Assembly (NCBI RefSeq): GCF_025231485.1
Contig: NZ_CP104003.1
Coordinates: 1,550,001 to 1,614,000, forward strand
Reading direction: 5' to 3'
Length of the DNA: 64,000 nucleotides
Origin: Salinirubellus salinus
Lineage (GTDB): Archaea > Halobacteriota > Halobacteria > Halobacteriales > Haloarculaceae
In this document: positions 18,736 through 57,845 of the stretch, piece after piece
Layout: every line of letters starts with the position of its first letter
Position numbering within the stretch: the stretch's first letter is position 1
Program-made: the position numbers and the translations under genes
Notes under the pieces: generated by a model
What the model saw: the letters and a program-made list of their open reading frames with translations, nothing else
Databases searched by the model: none
What the model was told of the DNA's origin: nothing

Positions 18736-19338
18736 TCACCGTTCGGTCACGACCGGGCGGGCGTCCGGGCTCTGGAGCAGTCGACGCCGGCCGGCCAGCA
18801 GTCCCAGCAACAGGCCGGTGAAGTGGGCGACCAGCGCGAGTCCCGGCCCGGCCGTCGCGATGGTGAGCACCAGCGCGACGGCGACGTAGAGGCCGAGCGT
18901 GAGCGACCGGTCGAGACGCACTCGACGACCGACGGCCCCCACCGCGCGGTTCCCGGCCAGCGCGTACCCGAGCAGGGCGAACACCGCGCCCGAGGCGCCG
19001 ACGACCGCCGTCCCCCCCGCGAACAGCGCGGCGACGAGCAGTTCCGCCACGCCCGCGAGCGCCCCCGCGAGGAGGAAGAACGCGTGGAACCGGAGCGGGG
19101 TGGTTCCACGTTCGACGACGAGGCCGACGAGCACGAGCGCGAGGAGGTTCGCCACGAGGTGCGCCACCCCGACGTGGGCGTAGGTAGCGAGGACGAGCGT
19201 CCACGGCCGCACCCAGAGCGGGAGGGAGAGCGCGAACGCCCCCACGCCGACACCGAGGACGCCCAGCACGGACTGGACGACGAAGACGCCGAGACACGCG
19301 AGGGCCGTCTGGACCGTCGGTCGGTCGGTGAGCGACAC
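18736..19338 (-). CDS. Rhomboid-family intramembrane serine protease
   Basis: A 200-residue six-span membrane protein with rhomboid signatures. TYAHVGVAHLVANLLAL holds the H60-x3-N64 pair, VGASGAVFALLGY holds the catalytic Ser116 in GASG, and VAHFTGLLLGLLAG holds the catalytic His172 in the last span. Both residues of the Ser-His dyad are kept, so it should cleave membrane-embedded substrates. It starts with GTG 19338. The next gene upstream on the same strand is DUF368 (42 bases away), then aglB; they may be one transcription unit. Deletion of a rhomboid in Haloferax volcanii has been reported to affect glycosylated surface proteins, which makes the location next to aglB notable. Confidence 0.88.
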   Translation of the reverse strand: MSLTDRPTVQTALACLGVFVVQSVLGVLGVGVGAFALSLPLWVRPWTLVLATYAHVGVAHLVANLLALVLVGLVVERGTTPLRFHAFFLLAGALAGVAELLVAALFAGGTAVVGASGAVFALLGYALAGNRAVGAVGRRVRLDRSLTLGLYVAVALVLTIATAGPGLALVAHFTGLLLGLLAGRRRLLQSPDARPVVTER

Positions 19339-19380: not shown

Positions 19381-20373
19381 CTACAGGAGGTCCTCGGTGA
19401 AGTGGTCGAGCGCCAGCACCGCCCCCGCGCCGACGACGGCGGCGAGGACGAGTGGCGCGACGACGGCGGGCGTGAACTCCGGCGTGGCTCCGAGCACCCG
19501 TTCGGCCGGGAGGCGCAGCGCCCCCACCATCAGGCTCACGAGGAACGTGAGCGTCGCCGGGCGGTAGTGTTCGAGCGCCCACTCGATGACCCGCGAGATG
19601 GTGAGCAGGCCGACGACGGCGCCCGCGGCGAACGACGCGAGGACGGACCCGTCGGCCACGAGCGCCGAGGCGTCGAACGCGACGACGGCGTCGGTGAACT
19701 GCCGCAGCGACCGGACGACGTACTCGTACTGTCCGAGGACGAGCAGGAGGAACGACCCCGAGATGCCGGGGAGTATCATCGCCGAGATGGCGACGACGCC
19801 CGCGAGGAAGACGACCAGCGGCGTGTTCGGCAGGATGGCCGTCACCTCGCCCGTGAGGACGAACGCGAAGACGAAGCCGAAGACGGCCGCCGCGACGCGA
19901 CGCGGGGTGTTCACGTGGACCTCGCCGTAGAGGACGACGGCGCTCGCGGCGATGAGGCCGAAGAAGAACGCGAACGTGAGCGCGGTGTACTCGACGAGCG
20001 CCACCTCCAGCACCCGTGAGACGGTGATCAGCGCCGTGGCGACGCCGAGACCGAGCGAGACGAGGAACGCGAGGTCGAGCGCCCGGACCCGTCCGAGGAA
20101 CTCGGCGCGCCCGTCGGCGGTGTGGACGCCGAGCAGTGACCGCAACAGGTCGACGTCGAAGTCCGTGATGGCCGCGATGAGTCGCTCGTAGATACCCGCG
20201 ATGAGCGCGATGGTCCCGCCGGAGACGCCCGGGACCGCGTCCGCGGTCCCCATGGCCGTGCCCTTCAGGTAGACGACGAGGTAGTCCCGAAGGCCGTCGT
20301 CGGTGTCGAGTCGGGGGGTAGCGCCGGCGGTGTCCGTGCCGCCGTCACCGGCCGTCGGCGACTCGTCCGTCAC
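19381..20373 (-). CDS. DUF368 (PopT-like) polyprenyl-phosphate flippase candidate
   Basis: A 330-residue membrane protein of the DUF368 family. The family motif KGTAMGTADAVPGVSGGTIALIAGIYERL lies just before the first span, and its inverted-repeat partner VAISAMILPGISGSFLLLVLGQYEYV lies in the second half. About eight to nine spans follow. Bacterial DUF368 proteins (PopT) were shown to return undecaprenyl phosphate to the inner face of the membrane. Here GTG 20373 starts one base after the aglB stop codon, so this gene is tightly coupled to the oligosaccharyltransferase, and recycling of dolichyl phosphate after N-glycan transfer is a reasonable inference. The first 25 residues are acidic and likely disordered. 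Confidence 0.87.
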   Translation of the reverse strand: MTDESPTAGDGGTDTAGATPRLDTDDGLRDYLVVYLKGTAMGTADAVPGVSGGTIALIAGIYERLIAAITDFDVDLLRSLLGVHTADGRAEFLGRVRALDLAFLVSLGLGVATALITVSRVLEVALVEYTALTFAFFFGLIAASAVVLYGEVHVNTPRRVAAAVFGFVFAFVLTGEVTAILPNTPLVVFLAGVVAISAMILPGISGSFLLLVLGQYEYVVRSLRQFTDAVVAFDASALVADGSVLASFAAGAVVGLLTISRVIEWALEHYRPATLTFLVSLMVGALRLPAERVLGATPEFTPAVVAPLVLAAVVGAGAVLALDHFTEDLL

Positions 20374-20374
20374 G

Positions 20375-23300
20375 CTAGCCTCGCGTCGGTGCGACGACCG
20401 GCGGTCGCACGAGCGACGCCGTGTCGTTCGTGCTGGTGGTGTTGGTCGACGTGCTGTTCGTCCCGTCGGTGCTCGTCGAGTCGCTCGAGTTCGTGCTCGT
20501 GTCGGTCGTCGAGTCCGACGTGTTCGTGCTGTCCGTCCCGTTCGTGTTCGCGCCCTCGGGCTGGGAGAGCACCTGCTCCTCCATCGTCACCTGCACCGGG
20601 CCGTCCTCGGCACCGACGACCTGTCCCTCGCTCACGTCCACGCTGGCGAACGAACGCGTGATGTACGCCGACTCGTTGGCCGTCGGCTGGGTGCTGAACT
20701 GGTACGGACCCGTCGCCCGGACGCTGACGTTCGTGTAGCCGTTCTCCGGGCCGTACTCGTCGTAGCCCGTCGTGGAGTACGGGAGCACCATCTCGAACTG
20801 CCCGTCGGCGTCCGTCTCGGCGTGCTGGACGTAGGTGAAGTTCCCCGCGCCGCCGGGCACCTGCATCCGGACGCGCGCGGTGACCGTGGTGTCGGCCGGC
20901 CCCTCACCCTCGACGGTGGCGCCCTCGACGCGCTCGAACGTCTTGACCCACGGCTGGACGTTGATGGGCTGGAGCGCGTTCGGGTTCTGCTGTGTACGAG
21001 CGGCCTCCGTGAACCGGAAGATGCGACTCGCAGGGGTCTCGCTGGCCGTGTTCTGCGGGCTGGTGTCGACCAGCCGGTAGTGCTGGAGCGCGGGCAGGTC
21101 CGTCGGCGGCTCGCCGAGGACGCCACCCACCTGCGCGGTGCCGTCCTGCCGGACGAACTCCTCGGCCTCCGAGAGGTTACCGAACGCGCGGAGCGGCTGG
21201 TTGTTCGACGGCAGGACCGGGTACTGCTGGCCCTGGATGCTCGTCGTCTCCCAGTCGACGACGACCACCGTGCTGCCGAGCGCGCTGTTCGCGGACTCCG
21301 GCCCGACGGCGCTACCGTGGTGCTCGTAGAGTCGGGTGCGCATCGAGCGCATCCCGCGCTCGGTCTTCGCGGAGAACCCGAGCTGGAGGCTCCCCTGAGA
21401 CTGGACGAGTACCGGCTGCGAGAGTTCGCCCCCGGTCACGTCGTGCGCGGACTCCCAGGCCGCCGGCGCGGAGTACTTCCGCGTGCCGGCGAGCCCGAGC
21501 TGGTAGTCGAGCATCACGTAGCGGGTCTGCTCGCCACTCTCGCTCACGAGGACGCCACTCGCCTCAGTCTCGTTGGTCGCCAGCAGGAAGTTCGCCGCCT
21601 GCTCGGCGTTCTGCTGGAACGGGTTGGCGAACGCCGGCCGCTCGCCGAGCGTCGTGATCCAGTGGCCGTAGTCCCACCACGATATCACGCCGTAACTCCC
21701 CTCGGAGTAGGCGAAGTCGTCCTGTCGCGGGTACGTGCCGTAGTACTCGAGGAGTTCGCCCTCGTCGCCGGTCCCGTAGGCACCGACCTCGGGGGTCTCC
21801 GTGCTCATCCACGCCAGCGACTCGTCCCAGTTCTGGACGAGGCCGGGACCAGCCTGCTGGTCGGCCGACTGCATCGCGTTGGCGTAGGTACCGCCCGGCC
21901 GGTAGGTCATCGGCACGGTCAGCACCATCACGACGGCGAGGATGGTCAGCACCTGGTAGGCGCTGAGGTTCGAGACGTCGCGGGCGAGCGAGCCGAGGTC
22001 GACGAGGTCGAACACCCACGAGAAGAAGACGGCGTTCGCGCTCGCCACCGCGAGGACGAGGTAGTAGTCGAAGCGCTGCTGGGTCATCGTCGCCAGGAAG
22101 AGGAACACGCCCCAGACGGCGAGGAACAGGAACTTCGGGGCGAGTTCGCGGTCGGTCGCCGAGCGGTAGAGCGCCAGCACGAGGCCGGCGACGGCGGTGA
22201 AGAACGCGAGGCCGTAGGAGTCGTAGATGAACTGCGAGGGGTTCGACGGGGGCTGGGCCTCGCCGACGGTGAGTGCCGTCGCCGTGCTCGAGAGGCCGAC
22301 GACGCGGGTCACCTGCGTGCTGAAGAAGCCGAACACGTCGGGGAGCACGAGCGCGACGACGAACGCCGACCCGAACGCGAGGGTCAAGAGCGCGAGCGGG
22401 AACCCGCGCTTGTCGAGGTCACGGGCGTCCCAGACGCGGGCGCCGCCGGCGACGACGGCGGCGCCGGCGGCGAGTCCGAGGGCGAGCAACGGCTGGGCCA
22501 ACGAGAAGTTCGTCGCGCTCAGGCCGAACTCGCTGATGGGGACCAGCGCGAGGACGGCCGCGACGAGGCCGACGGTGACGCCGACGATACCGAGGTGGTC
22601 CGGACTGACGCCGCTGACGTACTGGAGGAGCATGGCGACGCCGAAGAAGACGCCGAGGATACCGACGAAGAAGACGCCCGGTGGCCACACCCAGATGTAG
22701 AGCGCGGCGGCGACGCCGGCCAGCCCGCTCCAGAGCAACGTCGGGCGGAGCGCGTCGAACTCGCCGGCGCGGAGGAGTTCCCAGGCGGGCTTGTCGCGCA
22801 TCGCCACGTCGATGGCGACCAGCAGCGCGAGCGCCGCCAGCGCCATGAACATCGTCTCGGCGACGTGGTGGTCGGCGAAGCCGACGAGCGAGCGGGTGAG
22901 GAACTGGCCGGGCGTGAGCGCGACGACGAGCGCCGCGACCAGCCCACCGACGCGGTTCGAGAGCCGCGCGCCGATGAGGTAGACCGGGACGATGACGAGC
23001 GCGCCCATCACGGCGGGCGTGAACAGGACGACCATCCGGATCTGCTCGGTGGTCGGGGAGCCGAGGCCGACGATCAGGGCGGCCAGCGCCATCAGCTGGT
23101 CGAACAGGGTGCCGAACTGGCCGACGCTCGTGCCCTCGGGGAAGCGGGTCCACGGGTCGAACGGCATCGTCGCGGGGAAGTTCCGGACGGTGTACTCGAC
23201 CATCCGGTAGTGGTACCAGGCGTCGTTGCCGGAGAAGAGCACCTGTCCGTCCACCTGGAACCGCTCCCAGTGGCGGGCGCGGACCCAGAGCATGAACGCG

Positions 23301-23410
23301 AACATCGCCCCCAGCAGGGGGACGTGGTACACCTCACGGAGGCTGTCGAGAGCGCCGTCGAGGCCCTCGATGCGCTCCGAGAGCGACTCGGACTCGGAGG
23401 GTTGACTCAT
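20375..23410 (-). CDS. aglB: Dolichyl-phosphooligosaccharide-protein glycosyltransferase AglB (STT3)
   Basis: A 1011-residue archaeal oligosaccharyltransferase that moves a lipid-linked glycan to Asn in N-x-S/T sites on the outer face of the membrane. The first external loop has the metal-binding GNDAWYHYR, a second DxD-like site is GFADHHVAET, and the sequon-recognition motif is SWWDYGHWITT. About 13 spans are followed by a large extracellular domain. The last 60 residues are almost all Asn, Ser, Thr, Asp and Gly, and contain several N-x-S/T sites themselves. ATG 23410 fits the leaderless pattern with CTTATGCG 26 bases upstream. It is followed by DUF368 with a one-base gap and is divergent from an AglG-type gene. 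Confidence 0.95.
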   Translation of the reverse strand: MSQPSESESLSERIEGLDGALDSLREVYHVPLLGAMFAFMLWVRARHWERFQVDGQVLFSGNDAWYHYRMVEYTVRNFPATMPFDPWTRFPEGTSVGQFGTLFDQLMALAALIVGLGSPTTEQIRMVVLFTPAVMGALVIVPVYLIGARLSNRVGGLVAALVVALTPGQFLTRSLVGFADHHVAETMFMALAALALLVAIDVAMRDKPAWELLRAGEFDALRPTLLWSGLAGVAAALYIWVWPPGVFFVGILGVFFGVAMLLQYVSGVSPDHLGIVGVTVGLVAAVLALVPISEFGLSATNFSLAQPLLALGLAAGAAVVAGGARVWDARDLDKRGFPLALLTLAFGSAFVVALVLPDVFGFFSTQVTRVVGLSSTATALTVGEAQPPSNPSQFIYDSYGLAFFTAVAGLVLALYRSATDRELAPKFLFLAVWGVFLFLATMTQQRFDYYLVLAVASANAVFFSWVFDLVDLGSLARDVSNLSAYQVLTILAVVMVLTVPMTYRPGGTYANAMQSADQQAGPGLVQNWDESLAWMSTETPEVGAYGTGDEGELLEYYGTYPRQDDFAYSEGSYGVISWWDYGHWITTLGERPAFANPFQQNAEQAANFLLATNETEASGVLVSESGEQTRYVMLDYQLGLAGTRKYSAPAAWESAHDVTGGELSQPVLVQSQGSLQLGFSAKTERGMRSMRTRLYEHHGSAVGPESANSALGSTVVVVDWETTSIQGQQYPVLPSNNQPLRAFGNLSEAEEFVRQDGTAQVGGVLGEPPTDLPALQHYRLVDTSPQNTASETPASRIFRFTEAARTQQNPNALQPINVQPWVKTFERVEGATVEGEGPADTTVTARVRMQVPGGAGNFTYVQHAETDADGQFEMVLPYSTTGYDEYGPENGYTNVSVRATGPYQFSTQPTANESAYITRSFASVDVSEGQVVGAEDGPVQVTMEEQVLSQPEGANTNGTDSTNTSDSTTDTSTNSSDSTSTDGTNSTSTNTTSTNDTASLVRPPVVAPTRG

Positions 23411-23432
23411 TGGTCGAAACACCGGGAAAACG

Positions 23433-23440
23433 CGCATAAG
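23433..23440 (-). promoter_or_regulatory. TATA-like box of aglB
   Basis: Minus strand CTTATGCG, preceded by AAAAGG, lies about 26 bases before ATG 23410. It is in the 146-base gap shared with the divergent glycosyltransferase gene. Confidence 0.55.
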
Positions 23441-23556
23441 CCTTTTGTCATCGGCGCGCGCTCCGTCTCGGCCGCCAGACTCTTGAGGCTCCGATCGCCG
23501 TGCGACGCCCCCGAAGCGAAAACGGTAGGGTGGCGGGTCCAGACCCCCCGGTAAGG

Positions 23557-24510
23557 ATGCGCGTCTCCGTCGTCCTCTGTACGCACACGCTGGACCGCTA
23601 CGAGCACCTCCGGGAGGCGGCCCGGTCGGTCCAGCGGGGCACCTACGACGACTGGGAGCTGGTCCTCGTCAGCGACGGCAACCCCGAGGTGGCCGAGCGG
23701 ATGCACGAGGAGTTCGCCGCCGAGCGCGAGGTCGGCGACGCGGTGGTCCACGAGAACGACGAGAACCTCGGCCTGCTCGGCGCCCGGAACAACGGCGCTC
23801 GGATCGCGTCGGGCGACGTGGTCGCCTTCCTCGACGACGACGCTATCGCCGACGAGCGCTGGCTGGAACTGCTCGTCGCGGCCTACGAGGAGCGCGACCC
23901 CGTCGCCGTCGGTGGCCGGATGGTCCCCGCGTGGGTCGCCGGCAAACCCGCGTACCTCCCCGCGGAGTTCTACTGGCTCGTCGGCGTGACCCACCGTGGC
24001 TTCGGGCCGGACGGCGGCTGGGACGGCTGGACCACCGCGGGCGAGGTGCGCAACACGAAGGGGTCGAACATCTCCTTCCGCGCCGAGGTGTTCGAGTCGC
24101 TCGACGGCTTCGAGACGGACATCGGGGGCCGGAAGGGCGACAACCACCTGCAGGGCGGCGAGACCGAACTCTGTGCCCGGATGCGCGCCGAGTACGGCGA
24201 GGGCGTCTGGTACGTCCCCGAGGCCGAGGTCGCGCACAAGGTGTTCGAGTACCGGACCGAACCGCGCTGGCTCCTTGAACGCGCGTTCTGGCAGGGCTAC
24301 TCGAAACGCGGGATGGAGCACTTCGTCCCCGAGTCCGCGGGCGAGGAGGACGCGTTCCTCGCTGACCTGTTGACCGAGTTCGTGCCCCGTCGACTCCGGT
24401 CGCTCGTCCGTCGTCCCTCGACGGCGAAGCTATCGCAACTCCTGTTCCTCGGCCTGTTCACGGCGTTCGTGGGGGTCGGCTACCTCTACGGCGCGACGAA
24501 GTGGCGGTAG
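23557..24510 (+). CDS. AglG-type family 2 glycosyltransferase (glucuronosyl/hexuronosyl transfer)
   Basis: A 317-residue GT-A protein. It begins MRVSVVLCTHTLDRYEHLREAARSVQRGTYDDWELVLVSDG, then has the DxD-type site VVAFLDDDAIADERWL and the acceptor loop GGETELCARMRAEYG. A hydrophobic segment near the C-terminus (LSQLLFLGLFTAFVGVGYLYG) anchors it in the membrane. This layout matches Haloferax AglG, which adds glucuronic acid to glucosyl-dolichyl phosphate during N-glycan assembly. Position next to aglB supports this. ATG 23557 begins the first strand; an in-frame ATG 19 codons earlier gives an Arg-rich leader and is rejected. The exact sugar is not readable. Confidence 0.85.
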   Translation: MRVSVVLCTHTLDRYEHLREAARSVQRGTYDDWELVLVSDGNPEVAERMHEEFAAEREVGDAVVHENDENLGLLGARNNGARIASGDVVAFLDDDAIADERWLELLVAAYEERDPVAVGGRMVPAWVAGKPAYLPAEFYWLVGVTHRGFGPDGGWDGWTTAGEVRNTKGSNISFRAEVFESLDGFETDIGGRKGDNHLQGGETELCARMRAEYGEGVWYVPEAEVAHKVFEYRTEPRWLLERAFWQGYSKRGMEHFVPESAGEEDAFLADLLTEFVPRRLRSLVRRPSTAKLSQLLFLGLFTAFVGVGYLYGATKWR

Positions 24511-34671: not shown

Positions 34672-36291
34672 CTACCGGTTCCGGCCGAGCTCGTCGTGGC
34701 TGGTGACCCAGTCCGACGCCGAGATGGCCGAGGCCAGCGAGAGCTCGCCGGCGAGCACCGTCGCCGCGGCGATCTCCGCGAACTTCATGACGTTGCCGCC
34801 GCCCGCGCAGTCGAGCATCTCGAGACACTCGCGCTGGGTCGGCAGGTTCGTCCCGCCCCCGTACGTGGCGACGATGAGCGAGGGGATGGTGACCGAGACG
34901 TGCAGGGAGTTGTCGTTGAGCAGCGTCGTGTTGACCATCGCCGCGGAGGACTCCGCGACGTTCGCCTCGTCCTGCCCGGTGGCGATGAACAGCGACGCCA
35001 GCCCGTTCGCCGGGTGCGCGCCGTTGGTGTTCGCGCCAGAGAAGAACGACCCGAGCGTGGCCACCTGCGCGTGGTGGTGGATGCTGGACGGTTCGACGCC
35101 GAGGTGGTGCAGCATCGTCTCCTCCGAGAGCGTGACCTCGGCGGTGACGCGCTTGCCACGCGTCTGCAGGTCGTTGATTTTGGAGGCCTTCTTGTCCGTG
35201 GCGAAGTTACCCTCGAGGTAGAAGTTCTCGACGTAGCCGTCATACTCGGAGAGGATCCAGTTACACGCGGCGAACGTCGCCTTGCCGACCATGTTCTGCC
35301 CGGCGGCGTCGCCGGTGGTGAAGTCGAAGCGGAAGTGCGCGTGGTTGTTGGTGAGGTAGTCCTCGATGCGGACGAGCTTCCCGGTCGAGGTGGTCGCCTC
35401 GGCCTTCTCCTTGATGGTATCGAAGTGCTCGAACACCCAGTCACGGAAGTCACGGGCGTTGCGGGCGTCCTCGAAGACGAACACCGGCGCCCGGTTCATG
35501 TTGTCGTCGACGACCGTGGTCTTCGCGCCGCCCGAGAGGTTGATGGCCTTCATCCCACGGCTGTAGGAGGCCACGAGGGTGCCCTCGGTGGTCGCCAGCG
35601 GGATAGGGTACTCGCCCTGTGCGTGCTCGCCGTCGACCTTCACCGGGCCGGCGACGCCGATGGGCATCTGTGCGACGCCGACGAAGTTCTCGACGTTCCC
35701 CTCGGTGACCTCGGGGTCGATGGAGTACGAGCCGACGTGTTCCAGCGTCGCGCCCGTCTCCTCCTCGATGTACTCGTGGCGCATCCTGATGGCGTCCTCG
35801 GAGTAGTTGTTCTCGCTGTCCCGCGGGATGCCACCGACCATCTCCTCGCTGCGGATGGTGTCGGTCACGTCGAGGGTCAGGTCGCCGAACGGGGCCGCGG
35901 TGAAGTCGATCTCGATGTTGTGTTTCCCCTTCGTCACCGTCACGTCGTCCATCACGACGGTGACCGTACGGCCGACGGGGAAGTTGATGTAGCTCTCCTC
36001 GTCGACGTCGTCGAGTTCGTAGACCTTCTCGTCGGCCGTGACGAGGCGGATGTCCTCGACAGGGACACGCTCGCCATCGACGACGACGCGCGAGACGCCC
36101 GTCACCTTCGCGTCCTGGAGGCGATTCTTTATCTCGAACTGCGCCCCACCGTCGCTGTCTTTCAGGCTCCCGTAGGTGTAGAGCCGCTGTAAGATACGGT
36201 CCGGGATGTCCAGGGAGATGAAACCGCCGGAGCCCACGAGGTTCGCGTAGATTCGCTTCAGCACGCCGCTGTCCGGTGTCGGAATGACCAT
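34672..36291 (-). CDS. hmgA: HMG-CoA reductase with extra N-terminal domain
   Basis: A 539-residue enzyme; typical haloarchaeal HMG-CoA reductases are about 400. Residues from about 195 hold the catalytic core: ENFVGVAQMPIGVAGPV, the Glu236 loop ATTEGTLVAS, GDAAGQNMVGKA with the Asp, FATDKKASKIND with the Lys, GGGTNLPTQRECLE, and a C-terminal SHDELG with the His. It reduces HMG-CoA to mevalonate for isoprenoid lipids. The first 150 residues form an additional predicted beta-rich domain (YTYGSLKDSDGGAQFEIKNRL, GRTVTVVMDDVTVTKGKHNIEI, APFGDLTLDV) that I recall in some bacterial homologs but cannot name. ATG 36291 fits a TTTATT box about 33 bases upstream; an in-frame start 8 codons earlier is possible. 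Confidence 0.85.
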   Translation of the reverse strand: MVIPTPDSGVLKRIYANLVGSGGFISLDIPDRILQRLYTYGSLKDSDGGAQFEIKNRLQDAKVTGVSRVVVDGERVPVEDIRLVTADEKVYELDDVDEESYINFPVGRTVTVVMDDVTVTKGKHNIEIDFTAAPFGDLTLDVTDTIRSEEMVGGIPRDSENNYSEDAIRMRHEYIEEETGATLEHVGSYSIDPEVTEGNVENFVGVAQMPIGVAGPVKVDGEHAQGEYPIPLATTEGTLVASYSRGMKAINLSGGAKTTVVDDNMNRAPVFVFEDARNARDFRDWVFEHFDTIKEKAEATTSTGKLVRIEDYLTNNHAHFRFDFTTGDAAGQNMVGKATFAACNWILSEYDGYVENFYLEGNFATDKKASKINDLQTRGKRVTAEVTLSEETMLHHLGVEPSSIHHHAQVATLGSFFSGANTNGAHPANGLASLFIATGQDEANVAESSAAMVNTTLLNDNSLHVSVTIPSLIVATYGGGTNLPTQRECLEMLDCAGGGNVMKFAEIAAATVLAGELSLASAISASDWVTSHDELGRNR

Positions 36292-36321
36292 CGCTCTGTC
36301 CGGTACACCGACCACCGACGA

Positions 36322-51420: not shown

Positions 51421-52662
51421 GTGTCGGCAACCGCGAACAAGACGCTGGAAGCCACGCTCGCCCCACCCACGCGGTGCAAAGAGCAACGCCTCCAGCAAAC
51501 CCTCACCGAGTACCGAGAGGCACTCCACGAGGCGTTCGACAACGGTTGCACGACGATGAGCGCCACGAACGACGTGGTGACACCGTACAACTTGCCGTAT
51601 CAAGCGAAAGACGCCCTCAAATCCTACGTCCCCAAACTCCACAACACGTACAACGCCAACGAGTTAGACGGCGAACACCCTCTCCGATTCGTGAACCGAG
51701 CCGGGAAGTTCGACCTTGACACCGAGCGTGAGCACGAAATCTGCTGGAACGTTCCGCAACCCGGTCGCGGAACCAACTTCTGGATACCACTCCGACTGAA
51801 CCCAGACCAGCAAGAATTGTGGGGGGAACTGCTCGATGACGAGTCGAGTACCAAAGTAGGCGAACTTCGCTTGCAGAGACACCGGAAGACGTGGACGCTC
51901 CACGTTACCGTCGAATACGAAATCAAGGACACCTCTGAACTCCCCGAGAATCCGACTCGGGTTGGATTCGATATTGGCGAGTCGATGTTGGTCACGGGCT
52001 GTGCCCTCCAACACGACACTCCCACCAAACCACTGTTAATCAACGGGAAGGAAGCCAAACGACTCCGCAAAGAGATGTTCACGACCCTGAAACGTCTTCA
52101 AGAAAGAGACGCTTCCGAGTGGCGTATCGAAGAACGCTTCTCGTACCACCAGAACCGACTCACGGACATCATCGAGAAAGCATCTCGTGAGTCCGTGGAG
52201 TACGCTCGCCAATTCGAGAATCCTGTTATCGTGATGGAAGACTTAGCGTTCATTCGAGTGTCGTTGGACTACGGGAAGTACATGAATCGACGCCTGCACT
52301 CGTGGGCGTTCGCTCGCTTGCAGGGCCGTATCGAGGACAAGGCCCGAGACGCCGGAATCCCAGTCCGGTACGTCCACCCGCAGTACACCTCGAAGACGTG
52401 CCACTCGTGCAAACGCATCGGGTATCGGCCTCGGCAAGCCGAGTTTAGGTGCAAGAACCCAGCGTGCCGCGTATCGACGTTCCAAGCGGATATTAACGCG
52501 AGTGCGAATATTGCACGTCGCGTAGACCCGTGGGGAGAGAGTCTGCCAGTGAAACAGGTAGGCGATGACTCGCCTCGGGATGGGAGCCGTTGTGACACGG
52601 CCACAGTCCACCGTGAGACGAGCGCACCAGCGCAAATGAACCTCACGACGCATCAGGACTGA
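51421..52662 (+). CDS. tnpB: TnpB RNA-guided nuclease (IS1341-type OrfB)
   Basis: A 413-residue TnpB. The RuvC nuclease residues are intact: Asp184 in VGFDIGES, Glu273 in VIVMEDL and Asp357 in QADINAS. The zinc ribbon is C327-H-S-C330 and C344-K-N-P-A-C349. The N-terminal half matches the wedge and REC parts of TnpB, so the protein looks active. TnpB uses a right-end (omega/re) RNA to cut DNA beside a short target-adjacent motif, keeping the element in place. It starts with GTG 51421. Codon use is more A/T-rich than in the host genes. The frame runs to within 71 bases of the right end and overlaps the likely guide RNA scaffold. Confidence 0.92.
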   Translation: MSATANKTLEATLAPPTRCKEQRLQQTLTEYREALHEAFDNGCTTMSATNDVVTPYNLPYQAKDALKSYVPKLHNTYNANELDGEHPLRFVNRAGKFDLDTEREHEICWNVPQPGRGTNFWIPLRLNPDQQELWGELLDDESSTKVGELRLQRHRKTWTLHVTVEYEIKDTSELPENPTRVGFDIGESMLVTGCALQHDTPTKPLLINGKEAKRLRKEMFTTLKRLQERDASEWRIEERFSYHQNRLTDIIEKASRESVEYARQFENPVIVMEDLAFIRVSLDYGKYMNRRLHSWAFARLQGRIEDKARDAGIPVRYVHPQYTSKTCHSCKRIGYRPRQAEFRCKNPACRVSTFQADINASANIARRVDPWGESLPVKQVGDDSPRDGSRCDTATVHRETSAPAQMNLTTHQD

Positions 52663-53347: not shown

Positions 53348-54013
53348 CTACGTTCGCACCCGCGCGTAACAGTTCCCACTGGAGACCACGCTCGACACGA
53401 CGGTCAGCCCGGCCCGTTCGAGGTCCGCATCGAACTCAGCCGGGTCGTAGATGTGGTAGAACCGTCCGACCGTCTTGCCGTCCGGGAGCGTCCAGTCGAC
53501 GGTCGTGTCGAACCCCGCGTCGTGGTCGACGAACCGATCGTGTTCGGTGCTCCACGCGCTGACGAGCGCCCGGCCGTCGGGCGCGAGCACACGACCGAGT
53601 TCACGGAGGCTCCGGACGCGCAACGCGCGGGTCGGGAGGTGATGGAGCGTCGCGACGTACACCGCGAGATCCACGCTGTCGTCGGCGAGCGGGAGGGTGG
53701 CGGCGTCACCGACGACCGGGTCGAACGCGGCCGCCCAGCCCCGCTCGCGGGCCCGCGCTCGCGCCAGCGCGACCAGCGAGCGACTGGCGTCGACTCCCAC
53801 CACGCGAGTGACGTGCTCGGCCAGCAGTTCGCTGTGGCGACCGTTGCCGCACCCGACGTCGAGTCCGGTGGCGGCGCCGTCGCTGGCGTCCTCGACGAAG
53901 TCGACGACCTCGGGCCACGCGTACTCGCGGGTGGCCGCGAACCCCTCTGCGATCTCCTCGTAGGTGGCCCTGACCCCCGAGCGGGTGGGGTCGGCCGGTG
54001 AATTCCCCGCCAT
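53348..54013 (-). CDS. Trm9/ALKBH8-like tRNA methyltransferase candidate
   Basis: A 221-residue SAM methyltransferase. The start VRATYEEIAEGFAATREYAWPEVVDFVEDA matches the Y-x-x-IA-x-x-F-x-x-TR-x-x-xWP-x-V-x-x-F pattern of Trm9/ALKBH8, the enzymes that methylate the carboxymethyl group on wobble uridine of tRNA. Motif I is GLDVGCGNGRHSELL, motif II VVGVDASRSLV, and later YVATLHHLPTRALRVRSLRELGRVLAPDGRALVSAW as in Trm9. Its ATG overlaps the stop of pilC (ATGA). The tRNA role is inferred from the family and not proven here; a general small-molecule methyltransferase is the alternative. Confidence 0.8.
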   Translation of the reverse strand: MAGNSPADPTRSGVRATYEEIAEGFAATREYAWPEVVDFVEDASDGAATGLDVGCGNGRHSELLAEHVTRVVGVDASRSLVALARARARERGWAAAFDPVVGDAATLPLADDSVDLAVYVATLHHLPTRALRVRSLRELGRVLAPDGRALVSAWSTEHDRFVDHDAGFDTTVDWTLPDGKTVGRFYHIYDPAEFDADLERAGLTVVSSVVSSGNCYARVRT

Positions 54014-56112
54014 CAGCCGACGAACTGGAGGCCACTGAACAGGAGGAACACGGTGTAGGTGATGGCGAGCATCACCGTGGCGTGTTTCGCACCGTCCTTG
54101 ATGCTCCCGTTGCCCATCTGGCCGCCGACCAGTCCGGAGAGGGTGGACTGGATGAGCGCCGCGTGGAAGAACGTCAGGCGGTACGACTCGGTCCCCTCGT
54201 TGCTCACCTGCAGGAACCCGGTCGCCCCTGTCTCGGGGAGGTTCGAGGCGTCCGGCAGGTTCGGGATGAGCACCGTGTCGATGGCGGCGATGACGACCAC
54301 GAACACGATGAACGCGACGTAGATGACGACGAGGTAGGTGAGCATCTCCTGTCTGCGCTGGCGTTTCAACTGTCGGTCCGACCGGGCCTGTTCCGCGGCG
54401 ATGCGCACGACCGGTGCGATCTCGTTCGACGCCCGCATCGCGTTGTTGATGAGGGTCACCGTCCGGGTCACGGAGGGTGTCTCGACGCGTTGCTGGAACC
54501 GGGCGAGCGCCTGTTCGACCGTCGCCCCCCACTGGATGTCGCGCCAGATGCGCTCTGCCTCCTCGTCCAGCTCGCCGATGTCGGTCCGCCGGACCCGGTC
54601 GAGCGACGAGACGATGGAGACGCCGGCCTCGTTGAGGCTGGCGAGCCGTTCGAGCAGGTCGGGGAGGCTCCCCTCCAGCCGTTCGAGTCGGCGCCGACTC
54701 ACCTCGTAGACGACGGCGTAGGTGGCGAGGACGAACAGCGTCGCGTGGACGAGCACGTCGTCGAACACCCGGAGGTCGAACCCGGCGCCGAAGACACCGG
54801 GGAGCCGCAGCAGTACGTACCCGACGGCGAGCGGCACGGTGACGAACAGTATCAGTTCCGGCCGGACGACGAGTTCATCGATGGGGGAGGTGAGGCTCCG
54901 CCGGACCTGTTCGACGCGCTTGAACCACGCGAGCCGACGCCGGTTGGCCGCGTCGTCCGTCCCGTCGAACGCCACGGTCGAGAGGCCACCGTCGGCCGCC
55001 ACCGCCGCCGAGGTCGTCGGCTCCAGCGAGAGCCGGTCCGCACGGACGTTCGTCCCACCGGCGTCGAGCCCGTCGCCGGTGTCGCGGGTCGCCTTCAGCG
55101 GCTGGGTCACCTCCGCGAGGTACGCCACGAACACCACGTTCGTCGCGGGCAGGACGGCGTACGTGATGAGCTGGACGAGCACGAGCGTGTCCCCGCTCGT
55201 GATACCGATGACGAACAGGATGGTGATGAGGAACAGCATCCCGGCGACGACCACCGTGACGTACACCTCGGCGGCCGTCGCCAGCAACTCGAGTATCTCC
55301 TCCTGCTGCTCTTCGGCCTGCTCGCGGTACCGCCGGTACTCCTGCCCGAGGAACTCGGCGAAGTTGCGGCCGGACTGGAGTACCGACGAGAGGTTCTGCA
55401 TGAAGTTCCGCAGGTTCTCGCTCGGCGTCCGCCGCGAGGTCTGTCGCACCGCCGTCACCACGTCCGTGCCGAACAGGTCCATGTCGCGGACGCCGACGGC
55501 CATCTCCTCGGCGCCGGCCCCGAACACGCCTTCGTTGCGGGCGAGTGACTCCATCACGTCCGGGATGGACATCCCGCCGCGCGCGAGAGCGTAGATGAAC
55601 GCCACCATCCGCGGCATCGAGGCGTCGATCTGCCGGCGACGGGTGTCCGCCTGGAACGACGGGAGTTGCCACCGGACGAAGTAGACGACGAAGAACGAGA
55701 GGACGCCGAGCAACAGGGCCGTCCCGCCGAGGATGGCGGCCTGCTTGGCCGCCAGCGTGAGGAACCCCTCCGGGACGGGGTCGGCGAACCCCGACGGCAC
55801 CCGGTTCGAGAACCCCTCGACCCCGAGGACCTGGATGAGGAACGCGCCGACGTACGCCCCCACCACCGCGCCGACGAACCCGCCGACGGTGCCGTAGAGG
55901 TACGTCTTCGCGGCGTAGATGCGGTACGGCGTCCCGATACCCGCACTCCGGAGCGCACGCTGGCGTCGGTCGTCGGCGCTCGCCTCCGCGTCACCGAACA
56001 GGCGGTAGGCGACGCTCGTGACGGCGATCTCGACGGTCCGACTCGCGGGTTCCAGCGCGAGCACCGCGACGAGCGCCAGCGCCAGTCCCAGCGGGACGAA
56101 CTCGAGGACCAT
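54013..56112 (-). CDS. pilC: Type IV pilus platform protein PilC (T2SSF family)
   Basis: A 699-residue membrane protein with two T2SSF domains. The first is centred on MPRMVAFIYALARGGMSIPDVMESLARNEGVFG, the second on LPDLLERLASLNEAGVSIVSSLDRVRR, each flanked by spans (nine or so in total). This two-domain layout is the haloarchaeal PilC type. It is the inner membrane base on which the ATPase PilB acts to assemble pili for adhesion. The gene overlaps pilB by one base (ATG A) and the methyltransferase gene by four, forming one tight operon. No pilin gene is adjacent, as usual in haloarchaea, where pilins are scattered. Confidence 0.92.
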   Translation of the reverse strand: MVLEFVPLGLALALVAVLALEPASRTVEIAVTSVAYRLFGDAEASADDRRQRALRSAGIGTPYRIYAAKTYLYGTVGGFVGAVVGAYVGAFLIQVLGVEGFSNRVPSGFADPVPEGFLTLAAKQAAILGGTALLLGVLSFFVVYFVRWQLPSFQADTRRRQIDASMPRMVAFIYALARGGMSIPDVMESLARNEGVFGAGAEEMAVGVRDMDLFGTDVVTAVRQTSRRTPSENLRNFMQNLSSVLQSGRNFAEFLGQEYRRYREQAEEQQEEILELLATAAEVYVTVVVAGMLFLITILFVIGITSGDTLVLVQLITYAVLPATNVVFVAYLAEVTQPLKATRDTGDGLDAGGTNVRADRLSLEPTTSAAVAADGGLSTVAFDGTDDAANRRRLAWFKRVEQVRRSLTSPIDELVVRPELILFVTVPLAVGYVLLRLPGVFGAGFDLRVFDDVLVHATLFVLATYAVVYEVSRRRLERLEGSLPDLLERLASLNEAGVSIVSSLDRVRRTDIGELDEEAERIWRDIQWGATVEQALARFQQRVETPSVTRTVTLINNAMRASNEIAPVVRIAAEQARSDRQLKRQRRQEMLTYLVVIYVAFIVFVVVIAAIDTVLIPNLPDASNLPETGATGFLQVSNEGTESYRLTFFHAALIQSTLSGLVGGQMGNGSIKDGAKHATVMLAITYTVFLLFSGLQFVG

Positions 56113-57845
56113 CAGTCGAGTCCGGCCCCCGCTTCGGCCTCCGAACCGACCCCGTCGTCACTCCCCGACTCCATCCCGGCGAGCGGCCCGTCGGCCGCCG
56201 CCTTCGCCCGCTCCATCACGCCCTCCGGGTCCGCGTAGTAGCGGTTGATCATCGCCGTGAACTGCCGGTACTGCGTGATGTCCTGCTGGCTGAGGAAGTC
56301 GAGGAACCGCTTGCGCCGGCGGAACTCCTTCAGCAACTCGGTCTGTGACCAGCCACGCTCCTCGCGGATCTCGTCCAGCAGGTTCCGGTTGCCCTCCCGG
56401 ACCGTGTCGTCGGCCGCCCGCCACTCGAACGCGGTGGCGTAGTCGAGTTCGCCCGTCCGCTGGTCGATGCCCTCGATCTCGGCGATGGCGTCGGCCCGTC
56501 GGACCCGCTCGCCCTCGAACCGCGCGAGCGTCTGGACGCAGAGCACGTCCAGCGACTGGACCATCGGCCGCGGGACGTTGATGGGTTCGTTCTCGAGGCG
56601 GTTGATGACCGTCTGCACGGAGTCGGCGTGCATCGTCGACAGCGTGGTGTGGCCGGTGTTCATCGCCTGGAACAGCGTGATGGCCTCCTTCCCGCGCACC
56701 TCGCCGACGAGGATGTACTCCGGCCGGTGGCGCAGTGCCGACCTGAGGAGGTCGTACATCGTCACGTCGGCCGCCTCGTCCAGTCGCTCGCGGGTGACCG
56801 CGGAGAGCCAGTTGTCGTGGTAGAGCGAGAGTTCCCGCGTGTCCTCGATGGAGATGAGCTTCGAGCGCGGGGGGATGAACATCGAGATGGCGTTCATCGA
56901 CGTGGTCTTGCCCGAGGCGGTACCGCCGGCGAAGATGATGTTCTTGTTGTGCTCGATGGCCATCCAGAGGTAGGCCATCTGTTCGAGGTTGTAGGTGCCG
57001 AAGTCCAGCAGGTCGATGGGGGTGAACGGCTCCGCGGAGTACTTCCGGATGGTGAACGCCGACCCGCGGGGGGTCACCTCCTCACCGAGCGCGAGTTCGG
57101 CGCGCGAGCCGTCCTGCAGGGTCGTCTCGACGACCGGGTTCCCGACCGAGATGTGCCGGCCGGACTGCTGGGCGAGTTTGATGACGAACGAGTCGAGTTC
57201 CTCCTCCTCGTCGAACTGGACGCTGGTCTCGATGTCCTGGTACTCGTCGTGGTAGGCGTACAGCGGCAGCGAGTAGCCGTCGCAAGAGATGTCCTCGATG
57301 TTCGGGTCGTGCATCAGCGCGTCTATCTTCCCGAACCCGCGGAACCGGCGGTTGAGGTAGTAGAACAGCGTGTAGAACGTGGCGGTGTCGATGCGGACGC
57401 CGTACTCCTGGAGCCGGTCGCGCAACTCCTCCTTCAGCGTCTGCTCCGGGTCACCGTCGAGCCCCTGCTTGAACAGCAGCGGGTCGCGGATGTCGTCGTA
57501 GAGCGTCTCGAGCAACTCCGCGTCGAACTCGGAGAGCGAGGGTTCGACCACGTCGTAGTAGTGCTCGTTCTCCTCGTCGTCGTAGGTGATGGAGGCGTAC
57601 GCGAACGGCGCGTTCAGCCAGTACCGGTCCACCTCCTCGTGTCCCGTCGGGACGTCGGACTCGACGAGCGGGGCGTCCTCGAGTGGCGCGTACGGCCGGA
57701 GTTCGACGCTCGACCCGGTGAGCATCTCGACGAACCGGGAGAGCCGGTCGACGAGTCTCGACCGCTCGTCGTCGCCCCCGGTGGTCGCATCCCCGTCCCC
57801 CGCCGCCCCGCCGTCGTCCGGCGTTCGTGGTTCCTGTTCGGACAT
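56112..57845 (-). CDS. pilB: Type IV pilus assembly ATPase PilB
   Basis: A 577-residue secretion ATPase of the archaeal PilB/GspE type. A variable N-terminal domain of about 150 residues leads into FRGFGKIDALMHDPNIEDISCDGYSLPLYAY. Then come the Walker A FAGGTASGKTTSMNAISMFIPP, the Asp/His boxes ISIEDTRELSLYHDNW and HRPEYILVGEVRGKEAITLFQAMNTGHTTLSTMHADSV, and Walker B ILVGEVRG. It powers pilus assembly together with PilC. The stop overlaps the pilC start. Archaella genes (arlI/J) were considered but the N-terminal length and the absence of arl genes argue against that. Confidence 0.93.
   Translation of the reverse strand: MSEQEPRTPDDGGAAGDGDATTGGDDERSRLVDRLSRFVEMLTGSSVELRPYAPLEDAPLVESDVPTGHEEVDRYWLNAPFAYASITYDDEENEHYYDVVEPSLSEFDAELLETLYDDIRDPLLFKQGLDGDPEQTLKEELRDRLQEYGVRIDTATFYTLFYYLNRRFRGFGKIDALMHDPNIEDISCDGYSLPLYAYHDEYQDIETSVQFDEEEELDSFVIKLAQQSGRHISVGNPVVETTLQDGSRAELALGEEVTPRGSAFTIRKYSAEPFTPIDLLDFGTYNLEQMAYLWMAIEHNKNIIFAGGTASGKTTSMNAISMFIPPRSKLISIEDTRELSLYHDNWLSAVTRERLDEAADVTMYDLLRSALRHRPEYILVGEVRGKEAITLFQAMNTGHTTLSTMHADSVQTVINRLENEPINVPRPMVQSLDVLCVQTLARFEGERVRRADAIAEIEGIDQRTGELDYATAFEWRAADDTVREGNRNLLDEIREERGWSQTELLKEFRRRKRFLDFLSQQDITQYRQFTAMINRYYADPEGVMERAKAAADGPLAGMESGSDDGVGSEAEAGAGLD

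Follow-up and report, generated by a model that had tools for sequence, protein, structure and literature searches.

By which route is dolichyl phosphate brought back across the membrane once the oligosaccharyltransferase AglB has taken the glycan from it? This question, which is also asked of N-glycosylation in eukaryotes, is raised by a locus of Salinirubellus salinus in which the gene of a DUF368 membrane protein follows aglB almost without interval. If DUF368 returned the carrier, as we propose, this would be the first step of dolichyl-phosphate recycling to be assigned in archaeal N-glycosylation. No literature linking DUF368 with aglB was found among open-licence papers. The positions given here are those of the window, that is, the whole stretch of 64,000 nucleotides that was analysed.

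The aglB gene (20375-23410, minus strand) was recognised by TIGR04154 with 862.7 bits, above the cut-off of 450, as well as by PF02516, PF22627 and PF18079, and its set of Pfam domains (STT3, core and L1) was complete. Its longest open reading frame covers 20375-23437 (minus strand), the ATG at 23410 being the likelier start according to the codon model and the start context. The junction with the following gene (20371-20377, minus strand) reads ...GGC TAG C GTG ACG... on the minus strand: the TAG stop of aglB (20377-20375) is separated by the C at 20374 from the GTG start at 20373, so that reading the sequence confirmed the single intervening base reported in the first-pass annotation. The downstream gene (19381-20373, minus strand) encodes a membrane protein of 330 amino acids of the DUF368/PopT family, a candidate dolichyl-phosphate translocase, which matched PF04018 with 231.8 bits (cut-off 26). 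Divergently from aglB lies aglG (23557-24510, plus strand), coding for a glucosyl-dolichyl phosphate glucuronosyltransferase and scoring 461.5 bits against the NF041394 equivalog cut-off of 440. This is the AglG-type enzyme that the first-pass annotation had placed nearby, its divergent position is kept in most linked loci, and the span proposed for the group, 19381-24510, was correct, with the DUF368, aglB and AglG profile matches inside it. A rhomboid-family membrane protease (18736-19338, minus strand; PF01694) is found 42 bases downstream of DUF368, and its presence is probably incidental.

The PF04018 match, a family that Pfam names "undecaprenyl phosphate translocase-like", covered model positions 1-226 of 246. 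Likeness to the DUF368 undecaprenyl-phosphate translocases of Vibrio cholerae and Staphylococcus aureus (VCA0040/PopT) thus extends over almost the full model, and it includes two repeats with PG.SG motifs. However, the scores of 205.0 bits with NF052564 and 108.4 bits with NF052563 were under the NCBIfam equivalog cut-off of 400 bits, and for this reason the S. salinus protein is, as far as profiles can tell, a family relative of bacterial PopT and no equivalog. It would further differ from the bacterial proteins in its carrier, which would be dolichyl rather than undecaprenyl phosphate, and its gene is paired with that of an oligosaccharyltransferase. The N- and C-terminal halves of the protein were homologous to each other (hhalign E 3.6e-12), and the structure model (mean pLDDT 86.5) placed a helical hairpin at the PG.SG motif of each half. 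The first repeat motif (residues 37-54, KGTAMGTADAVPGVSGGT; 20212-20265, minus strand) forms the conserved core of the first hairpin, with model helices at residues 52-58 and 62-70, and the second (residues 198-206, AMILPGISG; 19756-19782, minus strand) occupies the equivalent, likewise conserved, spot in the second half; conservation was seen at P48-G53 and P202-G206. A sequence search for solved relatives gave no match of note, and Foldseek with the model gave none at an E value of 0.001 or better. The matches of the model obtained with VIA-align, mostly to the C-terminal half, were within the range of common helical arrangements and have no bearing on the novelty of the fold.

Whether the pair is peculiar to S. 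salinus was examined in 242 genomes of Halobacteria, one per species, by profile searches with PF04018 for DUF368 and TIGR04154 for aglB, plus two supplementary searches. DUF368 was present in 239 of them, and linkage was scored in the 220 genomes where both genes could be placed, with an adjacency threshold set on the domain matches. In 153 of these 220 species, which represent 50 of the 73 genera and 9 of the 10 families, DUF368 came directly after aglB in the same orientation, with no more than 543 bases separating the two domain matches; random gene placement would give about 0.06 linked genomes among the 220. Another 9 of the 220 had DUF368 on the same strand 1.8-2.7 kb downstream of aglB; in the remaining genomes the two genes were far apart (32) or on different contigs (26). 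Some of the latter cases are probably assembly breaks, as in a genome (G162) where both genes were near contig ends, and linkage is therefore, if anything, undercounted. The first-pass annotation had made its proposal dependent on how often the two genes are neighbours in this class, and had considered that DUF368 might be scattered without link to aglB in most haloarchaea; what we found was a widespread coupling, probably of ancestral origin. Pairing is not obligatory, since about one quarter of the species have AglB together with an unlinked DUF368 only.

Start distances were obtained from 76 linked loci examined as sequence, 64 of which had a usable start candidate. The predicted upstream-most start of DUF368 overlapped the aglB stop or was within 20 bases of it in 35 of these 64 loci, and it was within 100 bases in 54. 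The direct order was found in Haloferax mucosum, Halonotius, Halogranum, Haloprofundus, Halobium, Natronorubrum, Natrinema and Halomarina, among others, and aglM, for UDP-glucose dehydrogenase, was located between aglB and DUF368 in Haloferax marinum, Halogeometricum limi and Haloquadratum walsbyi. In one genus (g69; genome G204, contig C36, 205071-207818, and genome G234, contig C1, 649264-652020) the TIGR04154 match of aglB, in a single open frame, came in two pieces (approximately positions 2-317 and 277-830), which suggests an insertion or a divergent stretch.

An experimental link comes from Haloferax volcanii, whose DUF368 protein HVO_RS12060 complemented, at least in part, a V. cholerae vca0040 mutant for its defect in growth at alkaline pH (Sit et al., PMC9876793). 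In this organism aglB is HVO_RS12050 (PMC5131992; PMC7749143), and aglG, aglI and aglF are HVO_RS12045, HVO_RS12040 and HVO_RS12035, respectively (PMC7749143). Locus tags step by five per gene here, so that a single gene should separate HVO_RS12060 from the preceding aglB, in parallel with the order aglB-aglM-DUF368 that we observed in H. marinum. Going by this tag order, the protein tested in V. cholerae is very probably the DUF368 of the H. volcanii agl cluster. It resembles the S. salinus protein in being a DUF368 of the same archaeal class encoded in the agl region, two tags past aglB, but aglM is often interposed in Haloferax-type loci, whereas the S. salinus genes abut; orthology between the two rests on the genus-mates and the tag order.

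To see which genes travel with the pair, we compared the neighbourhoods of 27 loci with linked or nearby DUF368 copies, with genes called by the codon model. DUF368 was preceded by aglB in nearly all of them and a divergent AglG or related GT2 gene upstream of aglB was common, but the gene after DUF368 differed widely. The rhomboid protease, to which the first-pass annotation had given a place in the context, was clustered beside DUF368 in the S. salinus genome alone among the loci sampled; it carries no weight, and we rejected it as a part of the system. The unit that needs an explanation is thus aglG/aglB/DUF368, with aglB-DUF368 as the tight pair. The linkage is unlikely to be a by-product of gene order being conserved in general, because the pair was kept while the gene after DUF368 varied.

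A tree of 123 DUF368 proteins, built by a quick search and with support values obtained without bootstrapping, placed 30 of the 36 copies labelled as unlinked in a single clade (SH-aLRT 97); of the six others, one (G215) had simply been left unchecked for aglB. With 20 DUF368 proteins of other classes in the phylum as the outgroup, linked copies were distributed over the deep branches of the Halobacteria; nested among these, next to linked copies of one family, was the unlinked clade (SH-aLRT 99). Second DUF368 copies in genomes that also have a linked one fell in the unlinked clade in six of seven cases. Given the occurrence of linked copies over the deep branches and the grouping of most unlinked ones in a single nested clade, the aglB-DUF368 pair is probably ancestral in Halobacteria. 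On the simplest reading of the tree, the pair would be ancestral, the unlinked subfamily would have arisen once and spread, and some members of the class would have lost their linked copy. Outside Halobacteria, DUF368 was patchy in a phylum-wide sample, and none of the 28 non-halobacterial genomes of the phylum that bear it had an STT3 gene within 5 kb, so the tight pair appears to be restricted to Halobacteria. In the three sampled members of one family (f30; L213, L215 and L222), DUF368 and an STT3 gene were approximately 13 kb apart on the same strand, an arrangement that may be a looser version of the cluster.

Taking these data together, we consider that the most likely role of DUF368 is that of a PopT-type translocase returning dolichyl phosphate after AglB, with a probability of about two in three. 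A PopT-type polyprenyl-phosphate translocase would be produced together with AglB; as AglB moves the glycan from dolichyl monophosphate onto protein, dolichyl phosphate would be released directly at the outer face, and DUF368 would then carry it from the outer to the inner leaflet. Judging from the chemistry of the reaction, a pyrophosphatase or phosphatase step would not be needed, and the return flip would be the very next step. In the pathways of H. volcanii and Halobacterium salinarum the N-glycan is built on dolichyl monophosphate (PMC3871713; PMC8674786), and since the published haloarchaeal AglB pathways use this carrier, the by-product of AglB would itself be a substrate of the PopT type. 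In agreement with the first-pass annotation, which had put the protein forward as a recycling candidate, we could add membership of the translocase family and a widespread, probably ancestral, coupling to aglB; the linkage of the genes is observed, and we infer the recycling itself, with dolichyl phosphate as the substrate, an inward direction and a functional connection to AglB.

No match to PF00953, the type of enzyme that initiates dolichyl-pyrophosphate glycans, was found in the S. salinus genome; as controls, Sulfolobus acidocaldarius and Methanocaldococcus jannaschii gave matches and H. volcanii gave none. One PF02397 phosphoglycosyl transferase is encoded outside the aglB locus, and some pyrophosphate-linked glycans may therefore exist. 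The same job, the return of a lipid carrier, has been proposed for the DedA/UptA undecaprenyl-phosphate translocases, which belong to another Pfam family (PF09335); S. salinus has five such DedA/VTT-domain proteins, all encoded away from the aglB pair, and these may also recycle the carrier in parallel, so that deletion of DUF368 alone may show little. The points that speak against the recycling role are these five proteins, the PF02397 enzyme, the pair not being universal, the lack of STT3 linkage within 5 kb in the 28 non-halobacterial genomes and the PopT scores below cut-off.

The protein could instead work in the opposite direction, flipping dolichyl phosphate charged with the glycan outward and so supplying the donor of AglB rather than returning the spent carrier. 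AglR and Agl15, the proposed dolichyl-phosphate-glycan flippases, are not known to be DUF368 proteins. They share with the S. salinus protein a part in the membrane steps of the same pathway, but they are proposed to move the charged carrier outward, AglR acting on dolichyl-phosphate mannose and Agl15 on the low-salt glycan, and no H. volcanii protein has been clearly assigned as the flippase of the AglB donor glycan (PMC3871713). Gene linkage, moreover, is equally compatible with supply and with return. However, those bacterial proteins of the family that have been characterised handle undecaprenyl phosphate without a glycan, and one of them is replaced in part by its H. volcanii homologue (PMC9876793), which points to a bare carrier and makes outward flipping unlikely.

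A broader function is also conceivable, in which DUF368 would be a general polyprenyl-phosphate recycler serving N-glycans, dolichyl-phosphate mannose and exopolysaccharide, its co-transcription with aglB merely matching dosage. Many species that retain AglB have an unlinked copy as their sole DUF368, and residues conserved among linked copies were likewise conserved in unlinked and non-halobacterial ones, with no marker residues separating linked from unlinked proteins at the thresholds applied in the alignment comparison. Against this, the close coupling persists in 50 genera with aglB specifically, over other genes whose products use the carrier, and we regard a purely general role as improbable. 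The neighbours of unlinked copies (loci L126-L158) included genes for a thermosome-type chaperonin, a GT2 glycosyltransferase, a methyltransferase, a MutS-like protein and M20 and M24 peptidases, and no common pathway was suggested by them. In part of one family (f3) the unlinked DUF368 is flanked by a thermosome-type chaperonin gene on one side and a GT2/methyltransferase pair on the other, an arrangement that shows no obvious link to glycosylation.

A main role in salt or alkaline-pH fitness, through ion coupling or another lipid and with the place after aglB reflecting co-regulation with the S-layer, would fit the importance of VCA0040 for V. cholerae under alkaline and high-sodium conditions, as well as the enrichment of the family in halophiles (PMC9876793), but it is very improbable given that the V. 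cholerae phenotype was itself traced to undecaprenyl-phosphate recycling and that the junction with aglB is direct and often overlapping.

Returning to the recycling of dolichyl phosphate after AglB, a more far-reaching proposal, which we advance tentatively and at somewhat less than even odds, is that Halobacteria inherited from their common ancestor a dedicated pair of AglB and a PopT-type protein, in which dolichyl phosphate would be taken straight from AglB and returned, and that in part of the class this task passed to a second DUF368 lineage without linkage to aglB. The question is directly testable, with a conserved gene pair, a homologue, very probably of the agl cluster, that is active in a bacterial test and a genetically tractable host in H. 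volcanii.

Elsewhere in the window, HMG-CoA reductase, an enzyme of the mevalonate pathway that feeds isoprenoid and dolichol synthesis, is encoded at 34672-36315 (minus strand), approximately 11 kb from aglB. The protein encoded at 51421-52662 (plus strand) has a TNB domain of the Cas12f1-like type (PF07282), which is also that of TnpB in IS200/IS605-type elements, and a pair of genes for type IV pilus assembly, T2SSF and PilB3-like, lie side by side at 54013-57845 (minus strand).
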